Source: Risungbinella massiliensis (GTDB taxonomy: Bacteria > Bacillota > Bacilli > Thermoactinomycetales > Thermoactinomycetaceae). From it: a DNA stretch of 64,000 bases. Numbering within the stretch: the stretch's first letter is position 1; every line of letters begins with the position of its first letter. The translations under genes and the position numbers were made by a program. The stretch is from NCBI RefSeq assembly GCF_000942395.1, contig NZ_LN812102.1:483004-547003 (forward strand). The letters are read 5' to 3'. Positions 15,992 to 42,510 of the stretch are shown piece after piece. The notes below the pieces were generated by a model that was not told where the DNA came from, ran no database searches, and was given only the letters and a program-made list of their open reading frames with translations.

Positions 15992-16800
15992 TTGAACGCT
16001 CCCTCACCTACGCTAATGCTAAGAGGTAGGGGATTCTTGGGTAATCCCATCTACCGATAGGAAATGCACCAAGCTCAAAACGTAGTTCCTACAGCAAGAA
16101 GTCTTAGACCTTCTTTTACTATATTTTGAGCAGCATTGAGGTCTCGATCATGTTCTATCCGGCATTCAAGGCATGTCCAACTTCGAAGATTTAGGTTTTT
16201 CTCCGTTGGAACAAACTGCAAAATCTTTCAGTCCCAAATCAATCCCCATCGCTTGGTCAGGGTCTACTGGATGGTAAGGGCATTGGTGTAACTCACAAAA
16301 AAAGGAAACAAAATATGTAGGGTTTTTACGAATGGTAGCAGAAAGGATTTTCCCTTCTACTTCTCGAGACTTGGCAAACGTTACCCAGCCTAGCTTTGGA
16401 AGTTTGACTTTGTTCCCCGACACTTCAATACTTGGATTGCTCTTCTTAGGATAATTGCATTGACTGGTATAAGACTGTACTGGATTCCGTTTGCTTTTCC
16501 ATCGTGGCAGGTCATTTTGTTTTTGGAAAAAACGACGAAAAGCATCGGTTAAATTCTTTAAGGTGTTTTGGAGAGAAGTGGAATCTACTTCTCGTAACCA
16601 TTCCCTTTCTTTTTTGTCAACAAACGAGAACAAGTAGGATAGGTGAGTCATTTCTTCGTTTCTCGATAGGCTTCTTGCCATTTGGCTAAGAAATGGTTAA
16701 AAACAAAGCGACTACATCCGATTGATTGATTTATCAATCGTGCCTGTTCCATAGTAGGATCGATCCGGAACTGAAATGCCTTATACATTTGGTTTCACCT
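15992..16800 (-). mobile_element. Decayed IS200/IS605-type element, copy 2
   Basis: The right end (15992-16075) matches copy 1: GTTCAA at the boundary, a subterminal hairpin (CTACGCTAATGCTAAGAG in the loop) and a conserved scaffold up to the tnpB stop. The tnpB gene is degenerate, there is no tnpA, and the left boundary could not be fixed. Compared with copy 1 it has kept the opposite half of tnpB, so the two are independent decay products of similar elements. Confidence 0.7.
16075..16788 (-). pseudogene. tnpB: TnpB pseudogene with frameshift and internal deletion
   Basis: Starting at ATG 16788 (ribosome site GGGAGGTG) the frame gives MYKAFQFRIDPTMEQ and continues to RETKK, then meets a TGA near 16643. 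The next part continues in another frame (THLSYLFSFVD to [17 protein letters not shown]), containing the first RuvC aspartate. About 150 codons are then missing, including the catalytic glutamate region. The last about 42 codons ([17 protein letters not shown]...) follow in a third frame and end in TGA at 16075. It encodes no functional nuclease. Confidence 0.85.
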
Positions 16801-17074: not shown

Positions 17075-17341
17075 TTATAAAGATTCAACATAGGCTTTCG
17101 CTTCTGCTAACGATAGTCCCAATGCTTCTCTTGCCCTTTTAATGGCTTTAATTTTTTTACCTTCTTTTAAGAGTATGCGTAATTCACTATTTATCGGATG
17201 TTCAGATCCGTCTCCTTGATTCGCATGCTCTAACGAAATCTTTAAACGTTTAACTTGTTTTTTTGCTTCATTCACCTTAATGAAACAGAAGATAACGAAT
17301 ATTACCATTAGTATTATAGGTATTAAAATATACGGTGACAT
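17075..17341 (-). CDS. Membrane-anchored protein with L7/L12 C-terminal-like domain
   Basis: The 88-residue protein has one N-terminal membrane helix (YILIPIILMVIFVIFCFI), a short helical linker (NEAKKQVKRLKISLEHA) and a C-terminal segment LLKEGKKIKAIKRAREALGLSLAEAKAYVESL. That segment matches the helix-turn-helix part of the ribosomal L7/L12 C-terminal fold, the surface that recruits translation GTPases in the ribosome. ATG 17341 follows AAGGAGAAGTT, so the longer frame to 17416 is not used. The function is unknown. Confidence 0.7.
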   Translation of the reverse strand: MSPYILIPIILMVIFVIFCFIKVNEAKKQVKRLKISLEHANQGDGSEHPINSELRILLKEGKKIKAIKRAREALGLSLAEAKAYVESL

Positions 17342-17593
17342 AACTTCTTCTCCTTTGAACAGTATTATTTGTAATTTTATCTTAATACAAAGTTGTATTA
17401 CCACACTAATACTCAAAAAAATGAACGATTCATAAATGTGATAGATTTATAGAAGTCCTAACTTCGGAATTGATATCTCCTAATAGAAATATGATCACAT
17501 CCATATTTCATATGTATCCAAGAATTTCACTTTCTAAATAATGGTTGAGATATTTTGTTACTACAATATTCTTATTTTCAATAAATTTTCTAT

Positions 17594-17622
17594 TTGTCTT
17601 AGTAAAACTATTTCGATATAAT
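17594..17622 (+). promoter_or_regulatory. Strong sigma-A promoter of the orphan gene
   Basis: TTGTCT (17594-17599) and a perfect TATAAT (17617-17622) are 17 bases apart. Transcription would begin near 17629, giving an 88-base structured leader. Confidence 0.75.
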
Positions 17623-17640
17623 ATGATACAAGCAAGGGAC

Positions 17641-17694
17641 ATCGGGTCCTGTGCTAATCTTAGACAGCGACCCGATTGTTGGGTCATGCTGTCT
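17641..17694 (+). promoter_or_regulatory. Leader with two mutually exclusive hairpins
   Basis: Structure 1 is a long hairpin (17662-17694): AGACAGC-GACCC, loop GATTGTT, then GGGTC-AT-GCTGTCT, ending five bases before the ribosome site AAGGAGAG. Structure 2 pairs the upstream ATCGGGTC (17641-17648) with GACCCGAT (17669-17676), which uses the same GACCC and disrupts the first. This is the architecture of a translational switch, although no known riboswitch class is recognised. Confidence 0.5.
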
Positions 17695-17716
17695 CCATAA
17701 GGAGAGATCTATCATA

Positions 17717-18127
17717 ATGGAAGAAACAGAAATCGCATCATTGTGTCTGAGTCTAGTGAAAACAGCAAAAAATTGGGAGTCTCAACTTCGCCAACTACGT
17801 AATCAACCAGACATCCCAATACTAGAAGACCTTATTTTTCTAGCAAAAAAAGCTAGGCAATGCTTGAACCGTGCCAAATGGGAGCAAATTAGCCATGAAA
17901 AAAATTCATTGAATGGTTCTATTTCTTCCAAGGCTTTGTCATGGCTCGGCACCGCTGCCAATCTGTACTGTCAGATTCGAGCTAGAATTGAGGAAAAACC
18001 TAGTAGCTGTCTCACTAAACTCCTTACATCAACGGAATACCAATTCCTAGTAAGGGTTTTGCCAGATCCACAAGATGGCGCAGACATCACTCCAGACATA
18101 GCAAAAACTTATTATCTAGCTGGATAA
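17717..18127 (+). CDS. Orphan hypothetical protein, 136 aa
   Basis: The family is not recognised. The protein is mostly predicted helical, with an N-terminal segment EIASLCLSLVKTAKNWESQLRQLRNQ, five cysteines and no membrane helix or signal. The start is ATG 17717 after AAGGAGAG; the frame is open back to 17651, but that part lies within the hairpin leader. It has a strong promoter and the structured leader described above. A GC-rich stem without a T-run (GGGTGA / TCACCC with flanking GGGC / GCCC, 18138-18178) follows the stop. Confidence 0.65.
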   Translation: MEETEIASLCLSLVKTAKNWESQLRQLRNQPDIPILEDLIFLAKKARQCLNRAKWEQISHEKNSLNGSISSKALSWLGTAANLYCQIRARIEEKPSSCLTKLLTSTEYQFLVRVLPDPQDGADITPDIAKTYYLAG

Positions 18128-18315
18128 CTACTCCGACATGGGCCAGGGTGATCTATCTCTAGTTCACCCGCCTTGCCCCTAATCTCCACAGTTTATCTCT
18201 TTCCTTCGTAATTGCTCCCTACTAATAATGAACGAAATATCCTTTTTTAGATAAAAGAAGAGGAGCCTATGCTCTAACTTCCGAACATAGAATCCCCTTA
18301 AAATGTAAGCGTTTT

Positions 18316-19836
18316 CTAACTGATTAGTTCCTGTATTTTTCTCTTTAACTTTTGATCTTGGTCTTGTAAAAATCTTATCTCTGCCGTGCATTCATTCCAT
18401 CTGGCTTCTAATCGTGAGCGTCTGACACGAATCATTCGACGTGTCTCATCAAAATTAGGACCACCAGTGATTCTTCTGACTTCAATAAACGTTCTAGGGT
18501 CAGCATATCTTTTTAGTTCTTCACTACTGAGTTGTAGATCGATTCCCAATTCCTCTCTGGCAATCCGTTCAAACACCTCTGGTTCAAACTCATCTAGCTC
18601 CATTCCTTTGGCTACACCCGTTCTAGCAACATTTGCACAGAGTTTATGTGCTTGACGTAACGAAAGGCCTTTTTCCCTTACGAGCGCATCGGATAACTCG
18701 GTGATTGTGATATAGGATTCTCTTGACTTCTTGAGAAGATGTTCTCTATTCACTTCCATCGTCCGAACCACTACCGTCATTAAGCGCATCACTCGCTTTG
18801 CCTTCTCCATCGCAGAGTACAGGTGAGGCTGGAGATCATCTTCTGTATCGACAATATCTCCAAATGGTGTATTATGCATCATGGTAATGGCTGCTTGAGC
18901 ATCCCCTACTGCCGAGCTGGCGATCGACCGAGAGTGTTCTATGGAGACCGGATTTCGTTTTTGTGGCATGATACTGGATGTTTGAACATAAGGTGCTGCA
19001 ACTCGAAAAGCTTGAAACTCTCTCGTGCATAGTTGAAGGAAGTCTTGTAGCCAACGTCCTGTGTTAGACATCAGGACTAGCACTGCTGTTGCTGTCTCTA
19101 ACAAATAGTCTGCCCCTGCCACCGCATCATAAGAATTCTCCACTAAACCTGCAAAACCTAGTGAGGTTTTGGTAGAATCACGGTCAATTGGAAAACCCGT
19201 AGTTGTAATAGCAGCTGCTCCAAGTGGACTTTGATTTACTTGACGATAAGCATTCCACAGACGTGTTGTATCTCTCGCCAATAGGTCATGCACTGCTGTC
19301 AAATAATGCCCCAAGGTTGTAGGCTGAGCTGGTTGAGTATGCGTATAAGCAGGCATGATGGTCTCTACATGGTCTTGTGCAAACTCTAATATTGCATCTC
19401 GCAATTCCAATACATGTTGCAAAAGGAGTAATAGCCGTTCACGCAATACATATCGATACATGGTGACCCCCATGTCGTTCCGGCTTCTAGCGATATGCAT
19501 GTTCCCAGCTAACTCTTTGCCGATCTTATCTGCAATCTTTTCCTCCATCTGGAAAAAAAGATCTTCATAACTAGGATCATACGAGAGTGTATTTGGATCT
19601 GTTTGGGATACATCCTCTACTGCTTGTAAAATCGTGCGCGCTTGTTCTTTTGTCAGAATCTCTTGTTCCAGTAGCATCATGACATGGGCCCGATGAATCT
19701 GAAACATAGTATGAAAAAGATAATCTCGTTGGTCGTTGTAGACGGGTTTTAACAAGTCTTCCACATAGGTTTTACCTGGAAACTGTTCGCCTTCTTGAGC
19801 TAGCAATTTCTCTTTTGTAAGCATGTTGCTTAACAT
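18316..19836 (-). CDS. Argininosuccinate lyase/fumarase-superfamily C-N lyase, probably not ArgH
   Basis: This 506-residue enzyme of the aspartase/fumarase superfamily has MHIARSRND near residue 113, THTQPAQPTTLGHY near 165 and the catalytic serine loop SSIMPQKRNPVSIEHSR near 284. Family members release fumarate from N-succinyl compounds. True ArgH usually reads NPDxAELIRG after the loop; here it is NPVSIEHSR, nearer the adenylosuccinate-type and EDDS-lyase-type members. It is the last gene of an operon with a complete ABC importer and has no arg neighbour. Cleavage of an imported aspartate-derived amine compound fits better than arginine synthesis. ATG 19836 follows GAAGGGG. Confidence 0.75.
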   Translation of the reverse strand: MLSNMLTKEKLLAQEGEQFPGKTYVEDLLKPVYNDQRDYLFHTMFQIHRAHVMMLLEQEILTKEQARTILQAVEDVSQTDPNTLSYDPSYEDLFFQMEEKIADKIGKELAGNMHIARSRNDMGVTMYRYVLRERLLLLLQHVLELRDAILEFAQDHVETIMPAYTHTQPAQPTTLGHYLTAVHDLLARDTTRLWNAYRQVNQSPLGAAAITTTGFPIDRDSTKTSLGFAGLVENSYDAVAGADYLLETATAVLVLMSNTGRWLQDFLQLCTREFQAFRVAAPYVQTSSIMPQKRNPVSIEHSRSIASSAVGDAQAAITMMHNTPFGDIVDTEDDLQPHLYSAMEKAKRVMRLMTVVVRTMEVNREHLLKKSRESYITITELSDALVREKGLSLRQAHKLCANVARTGVAKGMELDEFEPEVFERIAREELGIDLQLSSEELKRYADPRTFIEVRRITGGPNFDETRRMIRVRRSRLEARWNECTAEIRFLQDQDQKLKRKIQELIS

Positions 19837-19978
19837 GGTAGACCCCTTCTTTTTTGAGAGTTTTTCAAGCGATTTAGACTACATAAACAAGATGAACTGG
19901 TTGGGAAGAAAGTCAGAGGACAGGTTAGGAGGAATACTCCTCCTATAACCTATCCATATGCTTGGAAACAGTTGCTTC

Positions 19979-21703
19979 CTATAACGATTTTTCCGCCTTT
20001 ACTCCAAAGAATTTTTCTGAGATGAACATCACCGCTCCAATTAAGATGATCTGATAAACAGCGTATGCGGATGCTTGCCCTAAGTTGAATTGTCTTAGGT
20101 ATGAGTCAATTTCGATGGAGATTGGTCGGTTGTCATAGGTGAAGAGAAGTACAGAGGAAACATACTCCCCTACTGATGTTACAAACGCAAGTAAAGCACC
20201 TGCCATAATCCCTGGTAAAATAATCGGTAGAACTACTTTACGGAACGTATAAAACCAAGTAGCACCGAGATTCTGTGCTGCCTCTTCTAGCGAGTCGTCC
20301 AATTGCTCCAGTGCTGCACTAGTAGAACGCACTACTAACGGGATATGGCGAACAAAATAGGCAAGCGGTAAGATCCAAAATGTTCCTACTAAGATGTTGT
20401 TAAAGGTAAAAACAGATGGTTGATTAAAAGCAAAAATGAGATTGATTGCTACGACGGTTGCGGGTAAGGACCAAGGTAACATCACGATAACTTCTACTAG
20501 ATTTTTACCTCGAAACTTCCGCTTCACCAGAACATACGAAGCAAGTACCCCAAAGAAAAAGTTCCCGATCGTAGCAACGGTCGCCATCCAAAGACTATTC
20601 TGGACAGGTTCCCATGTGGACGGATCAACCAAAAGCTGCTCATAGTTGAATAAACTAAATTCTGTTGGATATGGTTGAATCGTCCAAGTACCATCTGGTA
20701 CAAATGATAACAGAATAAGAGTCAAATGTGGCAACAATAATATGACAACTCCTATAATTGCTATCGTAACCAAAATCCATTTAATAAACGGATTACGTAT
20801 CTCCTTGCGCTGAGCGCTGACTCCCTTTTCTGACATCCGATAATCTCGACGATTTTGATACCAACGCATAAACAGCAGGAATGCGATCGAGATCACGGAA
20901 AGGATAACCGATTGTACAGCTGCCATCTCCAACGCATTGTTTAATTTGGAATTATAGATTTCCACACTCAAGACCCGAACTCCATCTCCTAGTATAAAAG
21001 GAGCGGAAAAAGAAGCCATAGAAGTCATAAAAACCAAGAGAGAAGAAGCAATAAGAGCTGGAGTAAGCATTGGGAGAGTTACTTTGAAAAAGACCGTAAT
21101 CGGCTTTGCTCCAAGATTAGTCGCAGCTTCTTCTAAAGCTGGGTTCAAATTTCGGATCGCTGCCGAAACAGTGACATAGAAATAAACATATTCCGTGTAG
21201 GTATGAACCAGTAAAATCCCTGGTACACCACCAATACTAAATGGAGCACTATCCATTTGGAATAAGTCTTGGATAAATCGAGTCACCAATCCTGTCTCCC
21301 CATATAGGATATAGAAAGCAAGAACCCCTACCAGAGAAGGAAGAACAATTGGCATGATCGCAATGCTTGAAAAGAACGAGCGACCAGGAAAATCGAATCG
21401 ATTAAAAATGAATGCAAGAGGTACTCCTACCACCGCAGCCAGCAAAACACTCAAAACGGAGATAAAAACACTATTTTTTAGTGCCTCAAAGCTCGTCGCT
21501 TCTCCAAAGAAGGAGAAGTAGCTACCTAACGAAAAAGATCCTGTTAGTTCATCAAACGTTAGGTTTGCTATACCTAAACTTAAGAAAAAAGTCCGGATAC
21601 TTGGATAGAGTACATATGCAAACAGCACCAGAATTACTGGAAACAATAATAGAAAGGTAAACCAACGGTCAGAACGGATTTTTGCCCATACTTGTTTGGC
21701 CAT
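19979..21703 (-). CDS. ABC transporter permease, two fused permease domains (FbpB/PotB-C type)
   Basis: This 574-residue protein has two tandem binding-protein-dependent permease domains of about six helices each, as in iron(III), thiamine and phosphonate-type importers. Each domain has the cytoplasmic EAA loop that docks on the ATPase: EEAATNLGAKPITVFFKVTLPML and EEAAQNLGATWFYTFRKVVLPII. The real start is ATG 21703, which overlaps the ATPase stop by one base (TAATG), so the two are translationally coupled. The substrate follows the binding protein. Confidence 0.9.
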   Translation of the reverse strand: MAKQVWAKIRSDRWFTFLLLFPVILVLFAYVLYPSIRTFFLSLGIANLTFDELTGSFSLGSYFSFFGEATSFEALKNSVFISVLSVLLAAVVGVPLAFIFNRFDFPGRSFFSSIAIMPIVLPSLVGVLAFYILYGETGLVTRFIQDLFQMDSAPFSIGGVPGILLVHTYTEYVYFYVTVSAAIRNLNPALEEAATNLGAKPITVFFKVTLPMLTPALIASSLLVFMTSMASFSAPFILGDGVRVLSVEIYNSKLNNALEMAAVQSVILSVISIAFLLFMRWYQNRRDYRMSEKGVSAQRKEIRNPFIKWILVTIAIIGVVILLLPHLTLILLSFVPDGTWTIQPYPTEFSLFNYEQLLVDPSTWEPVQNSLWMATVATIGNFFFGVLASYVLVKRKFRGKNLVEVIVMLPWSLPATVVAINLIFAFNQPSVFTFNNILVGTFWILPLAYFVRHIPLVVRSTSAALEQLDDSLEEAAQNLGATWFYTFRKVVLPIILPGIMAGALLAFVTSVGEYVSSVLLFTYDNRPISIEIDSYLRQFNLGQASAYAVYQIILIGAVMFISEKFFGVKAEKSL

Positions 21704-22809
21704 TATTCGGAAGCCCCCCAACTAGCCGGGAGTATACGAAGATGTTCTTCCGGTAGATGGAGCCATACTTTCTCGCCTTCTCGAAGCTGACTAACCACAT
21801 GTGCTTGGTTCATAAGCAACACTGTAGCCGCTATATTTTGGTTATCATGCTCCAGATCTACTGTCACTTGAACCACCGAGCCTGTAAATTGTATAAGACG
21901 AATCTTTCCAGGGATCGAATTAGGTCCTGCTTCAGCAGAGATTTTTACTGATTCTGGACGAATCGAAAGCCTCCAATCTCCCGAATTTTTTCCTTCCCAA
22001 TATTTTGTCGAGATTTCTGGTAAGCTGATACGTTGACCTAGCGCTGTTACAGTAGAAGAATCGTCTGACTTTTCGATTTCCTGTATTGGAATAAGATTGC
22101 TCTCGCCAACAAAGGATGCAACAAAACCATTAGATGGCGTATGATAGATTTCTTGTGGTGTTCCAATCTGTTGCAAGTATCCTTCTTGGAAGACAGCAAT
22201 ACGATTACTCATCGAGAGAGCCTCTTCCTGATCATGCGTAACATAAACAGTCGTGATTCCCAGTTCCCGTTGCAAGGTGAGAATTTCTGTCCGCATCTCA
22301 TCACGCAAACGTGCATCCAAGTTACTGAGCGGCTCATCTAATAACAAAATCCTAGGTTGGATCACTAGTGCTCTAGCGAGTGCAATCCGTTGCTGTTGGC
22401 CACCTGAGAGTTGGGTCATACGCCGGGATCCATATCCTGGGAGGCGTACCTGTTCTAATGCACGTTCTACTTTTTGTTTAATTTCTGCTTTAGGTAATTT
22501 CCGCACTTTTAAACCAAACGCAATATTCTCAAAAACGGTCATGTGGGGGAATAATGCATAATTTTGAAAGACCATTCCTGTATTTCGTAAATGTGGTGGG
22601 ACATTCGTTACATCCCTCCCATCAAACTCAATCTTCCCTGCAGTTGGAAAATAAAATCCTGCAATCATTCGAAGTGTAGTTGTTTTTCCACAACCACTCG
22701 GTCCAAGCAAAGTAAAAAACTCTCCCTCTTGAATGGTCAAGTTTATATTTTTGACACCAACATTTTCCGTAAACATTTTCTCTACTTGTACAAAATCGAC
22801 TCTACTCAA
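21703..22809 (-). CDS. ABC transporter ATP-binding protein (iron/spermidine/putrescine class)
   Basis: The nucleotide-binding subunit carries Walker A GPSGCGKTT, Q-loop VFQNYALFPHMTV, signature LSGGQQQRIALARAL, Walker B RILLLDEPLSNLDARL and the H-loop VTHDQEEAL. A C-terminal TOBE domain (about residues 250-368) is typical of this importer class. The start is a TTG at 22809, seven bases after CAGGAGGTG; the frame upstream to 22881 has no ribosome site. It is the second gene of the importer-lyase operon. Confidence 0.92.
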   Translation of the reverse strand: MSRVDFVQVEKMFTENVGVKNINLTIQEGEFFTLLGPSGCGKTTTLRMIAGFYFPTAGKIEFDGRDVTNVPPHLRNTGMVFQNYALFPHMTVFENIAFGLKVRKLPKAEIKQKVERALEQVRLPGYGSRRMTQLSGGQQQRIALARALVIQPRILLLDEPLSNLDARLRDEMRTEILTLQRELGITTVYVTHDQEEALSMSNRIAVFQEGYLQQIGTPQEIYHTPSNGFVASFVGESNLIPIQEIEKSDDSSTVTALGQRISLPEISTKYWEGKNSGDWRLSIRPESVKISAEAGPNSIPGKIRLIQFTGSVVQVTVDLEHDNQNIAATVLLMNQAHVVSQLREGEKVWLHLPEEHLRILPASWGASE

Positions 22810-42323: not shown

Positions 42324-42393
42324 TCAAAAAACCTTTTAGCCTCCCAAAATCGGACACTAAAAGGTAGACAGACATTTCCCCATTCCTCTGTCT
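42324..42393 (-). terminator. Terminator or attenuator in the birA-panB interval
   Basis: On the minus strand ACCTTTTAG pairs with CTAAAAGGT (42331-42365) and TTTTTT follows, about 35 bases before panB. A second hairpin, AGACAGA/TCTGTCT (42366-42393), lies just before it. It could end the cca-birA transcript or attenuate panB; no antiterminator element was found. Confidence 0.55.
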
Positions 42394-42480
42394 CCGTCCT
42401 TATTTGGCTCGAAGCAGCAAATCAATCAAACTTCATATGGAAATTACATACAAGTGTACAGCTCCCAATGGGATGCTATC

Positions 42481-42510
42481 ACTCCCTAAGCATAGCGAAA
42501 GAGGATTCTT
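42481..42510 (-). repeat. IS200/IS605-like end hairpin relic between birA and panB
   Basis: On the minus strand this 30-base stretch contains CCTCTTTCGCTATGCTTAGG, close to the hairpin core TTTCGCTACGCTTAG at 16947-16977. It lies in a 422-base gene-free stretch (42290-42711) whose other features are a perfect hairpin CCATCAGTGGG/CCCACTGATGG (42626-42653) without a T-run and the terminator near panB. Confidence 0.45.

Follow-up and report, generated by a model that had tools for sequence, protein, structure and literature searches.

Two predicted, mutually exclusive folds in the leader of an orphan gene of Risungbinella massiliensis and their possible use as a translational switch

Does the short leader in front of an orphan gene of Risungbinella massiliensis choose between two folds, and could such a choice govern translation of the gene? 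The question concerns one part of a window of 64,000 nucleotides (the whole stretch of DNA that was analysed), for which an earlier note, made from the letters alone, had described two exclusive pairings between a promoter and a gene of no recognised family. The features of the locus are as follows:

17594-17622, + strand: sigma-A-type promoter, TTGTCT-17-TATAAT, by consensus match only (10 of 12 positions)
17631-17655, + strand: P1, the 5' guard hairpin, which takes up segment A when B:C forms; -11.9 kcal/mol as the nascent 5' fold
17638-17680, + strand: A:B hairpin (state 1, Shine-Dalgarno hidden); 18 pairs, 4-nt loop, -22.0 kcal/mol alone
17662-17694, + strand: B:C hairpin (state 2, Shine-Dalgarno freer); 12 pairs including GACCC:GGGTC, 2-nt bulge, -18.2 kcal/mol alone
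17692-17705, + strand: hairpin opposing the Shine-Dalgarno (anti-SD), TCTCC-ATAA-GGAGA, which uses the 3' end of segment C
17699-17706, + strand: Shine-Dalgarno (SD) AAGGAGAG, as read from the sequence, 10 nt from the ATG
17717-18127, + strand: orphan gene, 136 aa, product predicted to be all-helical and bundle-like, no family
18140-18178, + strand: GC-rich hairpin past the stop codon, with no U-run behind it and absent from the terminator scan list

The promoter had been called near-consensus, a description that suits its perfect -10 box (TATAAT) and flatters its -35 box (TTGTCT), which is an ordinary 4/6 match. A promoter scan returned 10 promoter-like sites in 3 kb, against 7.8 (sd 3.2) in shuffled sequence, and the combination of a perfect TATAAT with a -35 box of at least 4/6 had 55 occurrences in 928,000 strand-bases, or one in about 16.9 kb. 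The usual distance from the -10 box places the start site at about 17629, which gives a leader of 88 nt (17629-17716) up to the ATG at 17717.

Three segments of this leader are complementary to one another: A (17638-17656), B (17662-17680) and C (17681-17694). The letters picked out at the outset, ATCGGGTC at 17641-17648, GACCCGAT at 17669-17676 and GGGTC at 17681-17685, are correct and in place, and the two pairings do exclude one another as claimed, GACCC being common to both. The 8-bp helix between ATCGGGTC and GACCCGAT is real, but it is only the core of the longer A:B hairpin. P1 begins about 2 nt past the inferred start site, and the B:C hairpin ends 4 nt 5' of the SD motif AAGGAG (17699-17704). 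Folding of the full 88 nt gave two near-isoenergetic structures (-33.4 vs -32.4 kcal/mol), with predicted equilibrium shares at 37°C of 0.85 for state 2 and 0.12 for state 1, so that one strand (B) is predicted to be common to two exclusive helices of comparable stability. The two-fold observation is confirmed, and it is larger than first described: the bistability was borne out, whereas the 18 pairs, the masking of A by P1 and the link to the SD had been absent from the earlier account. No Rfam family fitted the leader (none at the gathering score), and the one match at E up to 5 lay on the - strand (E 1.3) and was taken as chance. No aptamer was apparent in the leader outside P1 and the switching strands.

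The link to the SD runs through the end of segment C. TCTCC (17692-17696) is perfectly complementary to GGAGA (17701-17705), the SD core, and its first three bases (TCT, 17692-17694) form the base of the B:C stem in state 2 and are free in the A:B state. At 37°C, SD bases 17701-17704 are predicted to be unpaired with a probability of 0.02 in state 1, against 0.30 in state 2; at 55°C the two values are 0.08 and 0.50. The choice of helix is thus predicted to change SD pairing, and the ON state would not be a clean one, with the SD expected to be unpaired only 30% of the time in state 2 at 37°C.

How unusual this arrangement is was judged against a sample of 307 leaders, each with an SD-like site and followed by an ORF of 100 aa or more, which came from the 64-kb window and from 20 further pieces of the genome, each 20 kb long. 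Anti-SD hairpins with five perfect pairs were rare among them (3/307). For each leader the rival fold was taken as the best fold obtained after penalising all pairs of the first. That of the orphan leader (-29.8 kcal/mol, with zero pairs in common with the best fold) ranked first of the 307, the runner-up reaching -22.6, and none of 2000 dinucleotide shuffles attained it (mean -18.0, sd 2.4). The best fold was less exceptional in its class, as 4/307 leaders, this one included, were as stable; across the window, 0.16% of 3196 segments of 88 bases were as stable as the leader. For 107 nt including the leader the z-score was -3.6, and 0/200 dinucleotide shuffles were as stable. The three-part geometry was found once on the + strand of the window, not at all on its - strand, and in none of 40 simulated 64-kb sequences, a rarity that is overstated because the simulations held a mean of only 34 perfect 8-bp inverted repeats vs 153 on the real strand. 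Since the rarity criteria were set after the case had been seen, all of these figures are to be read as descriptive; and as no homologous leader was found, it is rarity that speaks for selection on the pairing.

A grid of 44-base steps over 464 kb, both strands, found 4 of 21,026 segments of 88 bases with a rival fold reaching -29.8 kcal/mol, although the grid missed the leader itself and so can miss other short elements. All four belong to one hairpin-rich place, seen on both strands: positions 17470-17930 of a stretch that we label L041 (G000:C7:500001-520000), the only other site on the grid with an equally stable rival fold. It consists of closely packed, near-perfect hairpins and, after them, repeat units of about 100 nt each, and lies upstream of ORFs that we take to be spoVAC and spoVAD. 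The array had no Rfam match at the gathering score and five below threshold (E 0.23-0.94).

Folding of the growing chain gave an order of events. P1 was present at 17668, the shortest length computed; A:B was favoured from 17674 to 17689; and P1 together with B:C took over from 17692. Barriers at 37°C, estimated with findpath as upper bounds, were 10.8 kcal/mol from P1 to A:B, 15.3 from A:B to B:C and 17.1 from state 1 as a whole to state 2; at 50°C the same three steps gave 10.0, 13.4 and 14.6 kcal/mol. Barriers predicted to be this high suggest that the outcome may be set during transcription and then held. The response to temperature was slight: the predicted share of A:B was 0.07 at 25°C, 0.12 at 37-55°C and 0.19 at 65°C, and overall opening of the SD climbed only gradually, from 0.16 to 0.44. 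An RNA thermometer is disfavoured, as the predicted share of the SD-hiding state does not fall as the temperature rises, and the near independence of the A:B share from temperature argues against a simple device of that kind. A 16S rRNA copy of the genome has about 56% G+C.

Computation yielded the two folds with their closeness in energy and their rarity, as well as the predicted link to SD pairing; from these we infer the cellular use, the direction of ON and OFF and the timing. On our preferred reading, whose chances we regard as evenly balanced, the leader is a strand-exchange translational switch of the orphan gene, with segment B as the switching strand. P1 would form first during transcription and mask A. 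Were P1 to stay intact until C emerges, B:C would pair, the 3' end of C would be locked and the SD would be left relatively free (ON). Were A instead freed from P1 before C appears, A:B could zip into its 18-pair hairpin (OFF), C would be left over, and its TCTCC end would fold onto the SD. The release of A could be due to a ligand, protein or RNA, or to pausing of the polymerase somewhere from about 17677 to 17692. The decision would fall cotranscriptionally and would then be kept by the barrier, which is predicted to be high.

The strongest competitor treats the structure as passive. Almost all transcripts would carry P1 and B:C, which would shield the end of the mRNA, and A:B would be a folding intermediate without a regulatory role. 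Hairpins at the 5' end are known to stabilise Gram-positive mRNAs, equilibrium at 37°C puts 0.85 of the molecules in B:C, and B:C ends just 5' of the SD, a position compatible with initiation. Such a stabiliser needs only one good hairpin, however, and does not predict either a rival fold at -29.8 kcal/mol with no pair in common (0/2000 shuffles) or the tie between an anti-SD and the end of segment C. Because the equilibrium favours B:C we keep it as an unlikely explanation, albeit one to be taken seriously.

In another rival reading the leader is an autoregulatory site for the gene's own product rather than a small-molecule switch: a small helical protein would bind one fold of the leader and stop its own translation. 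Such autorepression would suit a gene that stands alone behind a promoter-like site and a structured leader of its own, and it would suit the predicted helical bundle, whose fold matches include a single-chain Rop bundle and an S23-family protein. Those matches are to mixed bundles, however, with a best Z of 12.3 (below about 13), and the predicted pI of 7.6 is not strongly basic, so that we consider autorepression improbable.

A further reading moves the signal from RNA to DNA, taking the three alternating copies of GGGTC-n-CTGT as operators for a repressor and the RNA folding as their by-product. The copies span about +16 to about +64 past the inferred start in +, -, + orientation, where operators can lie. 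The pattern GGGTC-N(0-3)-CTGT occurs five times in the window (three of them the leader copies) vs 0.83 in shuffles, and 31 times in the genome vs 22 for the reversed control. The spacing between GGGTC and CTGT, however, differs among the leader copies (0, 1 and 3 nt), a variation that RNA helices would take up as bulges but that is hard to square with a DNA operator. The other 28 matches in the genome lie scattered, none closer than 1.8 kb to another and none forming a second cluster, although single sites elsewhere are possible. A stricter operator pattern had one other match, and as it fits only 1/3 of the leader copies it tests little. DNA operators also leave the anti-SD coupling unexplained, and we find this reading very hard to credit.

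The remaining doubt is whether there is a gene to regulate. The codon score of the orphan was 0.139 per codon, exceeded by 4/365 wrong-frame chunks and undercut by 4/73 long-ORF chunks; the long ORFs had also been used to train the score, while the orphan had not. As the score lies above most wrong-frame and below most long-ORF chunks, the gene is probably coding and atypical. AlphaFold2, run on the single sequence, predicted three long helices followed by shorter C-terminal ones with a mean pLDDT of 81.6 and a pTM of 0.77 (residues 125-136 below 50; mean pLDDT across the five models 53.6-81.6). That the leader is chance structure before a recently arisen, perhaps non-functional ORF would accord with the low codon score and the absence of a homologue from the collections searched, but it sits poorly with the few wrong-frame chunks that score higher, the fairly confident single-sequence fold and the rival-fold statistics of the leader (1/307; 0/2000 shuffles), and seems to us most improbable.

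The statement that the product has no recognised family held: it had no match to Pfam or NCBIfam at E up to 1, or to PADLOC at E up to 10, and its two PHROGs matches were non-significant (best E 0.19). A fold search gave no PDB or viral match at E 0.001. A structural second look gave the mixed helical bundles mentioned above, and because a bundle match below a Z of about 13 may mean a common arrangement only, we read them as probably no more specific than that.

Searches for relatives of the protein returned only the query in 1/41 related genomes, 1/398 genomes of a sample of the class and 1/398 of a sample of the phylum. Among genomes of the order, 2/42 had a match, one being the gene itself; the second (E 0.009, 45 query residues inside an 817-aa frame) was judged to be chance. 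The host genus is represented by this genome alone among the 42. A peptide pattern fitted 51 stretches in GTDB genome contigs, where its reach is limited to close relatives, and 2 in viral contigs, none of them confirmed. There was no match in plasmids, none to PDB sequences at E up to 5, and one in phages (E 0.4) that was put down to chance. The DNA of the unit gave 2 short plasmid matches at E 0.6, none in phages, and 25 other short matches in its own genome, the best at E 0.02 over 34 bases.

On the far side of the gene, 18316-21721 on the - strand carries an argininosuccinate-lyase-like gene adjoining a permease-like gene, whose translation resembles an ABC permease and which we presume to be one. 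At E up to 1e-100, relatives of the lyase gene were found in 5/22 other genomes of the family, and the permease-like neighbour is kept at all five of those loci (5/5). Within about 1.5 kb of flank at the five loci, no ORF of at least 60 aa had the orphan as its best match in the window at E 1e-5.

The leader was equally solitary. A DNA search of the family found it in 1/23 genomes, its own. Two covariance models, each built from the single sequence, gave matches in 4/200 genomes at E up to 0.1 (R1; three besides itself, E 0.01-0.08) and in 3/42 genomes at E up to 1 (R2; besides itself, three matches in two genomes, E 0.79-0.86), and those other than the leader itself are at chance level. When the six stretches were folded, on the basis that each match starts 1500 bases into its locus, their rival folds ranged from -20.6 (L012) to -4.2 kcal/mol, none near -29.8. 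A flexible exact pattern of the leader fitted 49 stretches in GTDB contigs and 2 in viral contigs, all judged by title; among the former no title named Bacillota and one read only 'bacterium'. The orphan gene was seen as a single copy in a single species, and could be recent or short-lived.

Several known systems resemble the proposed switch in part. The mRNAs of type I toxins such as hok have metastable leaders that fold stepwise and in which exclusive hairpins hide the SD, and this leader is like them in its ordered cotranscriptional folding and its exclusive SD-hiding hairpins. The products of type I toxin genes are small membrane peptides shorter than 136 aa. A type I system seems less likely here, since the product has 136 aa; a scan for promoters of the consensus type saw no antisense promoter-like site on the - strand from 17582 to 19125. 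Attenuators like that of ermC combine a stalling leader peptide with several alternatively pairing segments and an anti-SD. The present leader shares the segments and the anti-SD, and an ermC-like attenuator is disfavoured, the sole upstream ATG in the leader (17686) opening a frame of four codons (MLSP-stop) without an SD. A GTG at 17651 shares the reading frame of the orphan gene itself. A transcription terminator within the leader is likewise disfavoured, as its hairpins have no U-run and the scan lists none there.

The closest likeness is to the Group 3 strand-exchange translational riboswitches, in which one strand takes part in two exclusive helices and so decides SD pairing (PMC10907184). 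The layout of the leader, its shared switching strand and the predicted outcome for the SD agree with that description. The leader differs in having no known aptamer, fitting Rfam match or ligand, and in that the switch and 5' hairpin fill nearly the whole of its 88 nt. With no aptamer or ligand known, a riboswitch class proper cannot be claimed for it. A literature search found nothing joining 'Thermoactinomycetaceae' with 'riboswitch'.

The suggestion that this might be an undescribed cis-regulated unit was a fair reading insofar as no Rfam family and no significant protein family applies, while the regulation in it was only inferred. Leader and gene together make a good candidate for a cis-regulated unit of a known kind. 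That they represent an undescribed class, in which P1 decides cotranscriptionally between hiding and freeing the SD of a species-specific gene behind a lock of about 15 kcal/mol, is a more speculative proposal that we hold to be unlikely. Should the switch prove functional, a gene that seems confined to a single species would come with an elaborate RNA control of its own, a matter of interest for the way in which regulation arises in young or orphan genes. The leader would further offer a compact natural case of a cotranscriptional strand-exchange switch, at 88 nt small enough for full mutational mapping, and whatever triggers it, whether ligand, protein or pausing signal, would be new.

Past the stop codon, the fold of 18128-18200, which includes the GC-rich hairpin, has an energy of -18.5 kcal/mol on the + strand and -22.6 on the - strand, and the hairpin could possibly be the 3' end of the mRNA or a bidirectional structure. 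Upstream of the promoter, on the - strand, 16166-16799 holds a frame apparently broken between a likely start at about 16790 and an ORF at 16166-16681, presumably the remnant of a tnpB of IS200/IS605 type. Between this frame and the promoter, at 17075-17341 (- strand), lies a small ORF with an N-terminal hydrophobic stretch and half of a ribosomal-L7/L12-like C-terminal domain, which matches PRK06771 below the cut-off. Only one Rfam family passed its gathering score anywhere in the window, the pan motif (RF01749), at 42384-42482 on the - strand with 55.4 bits.
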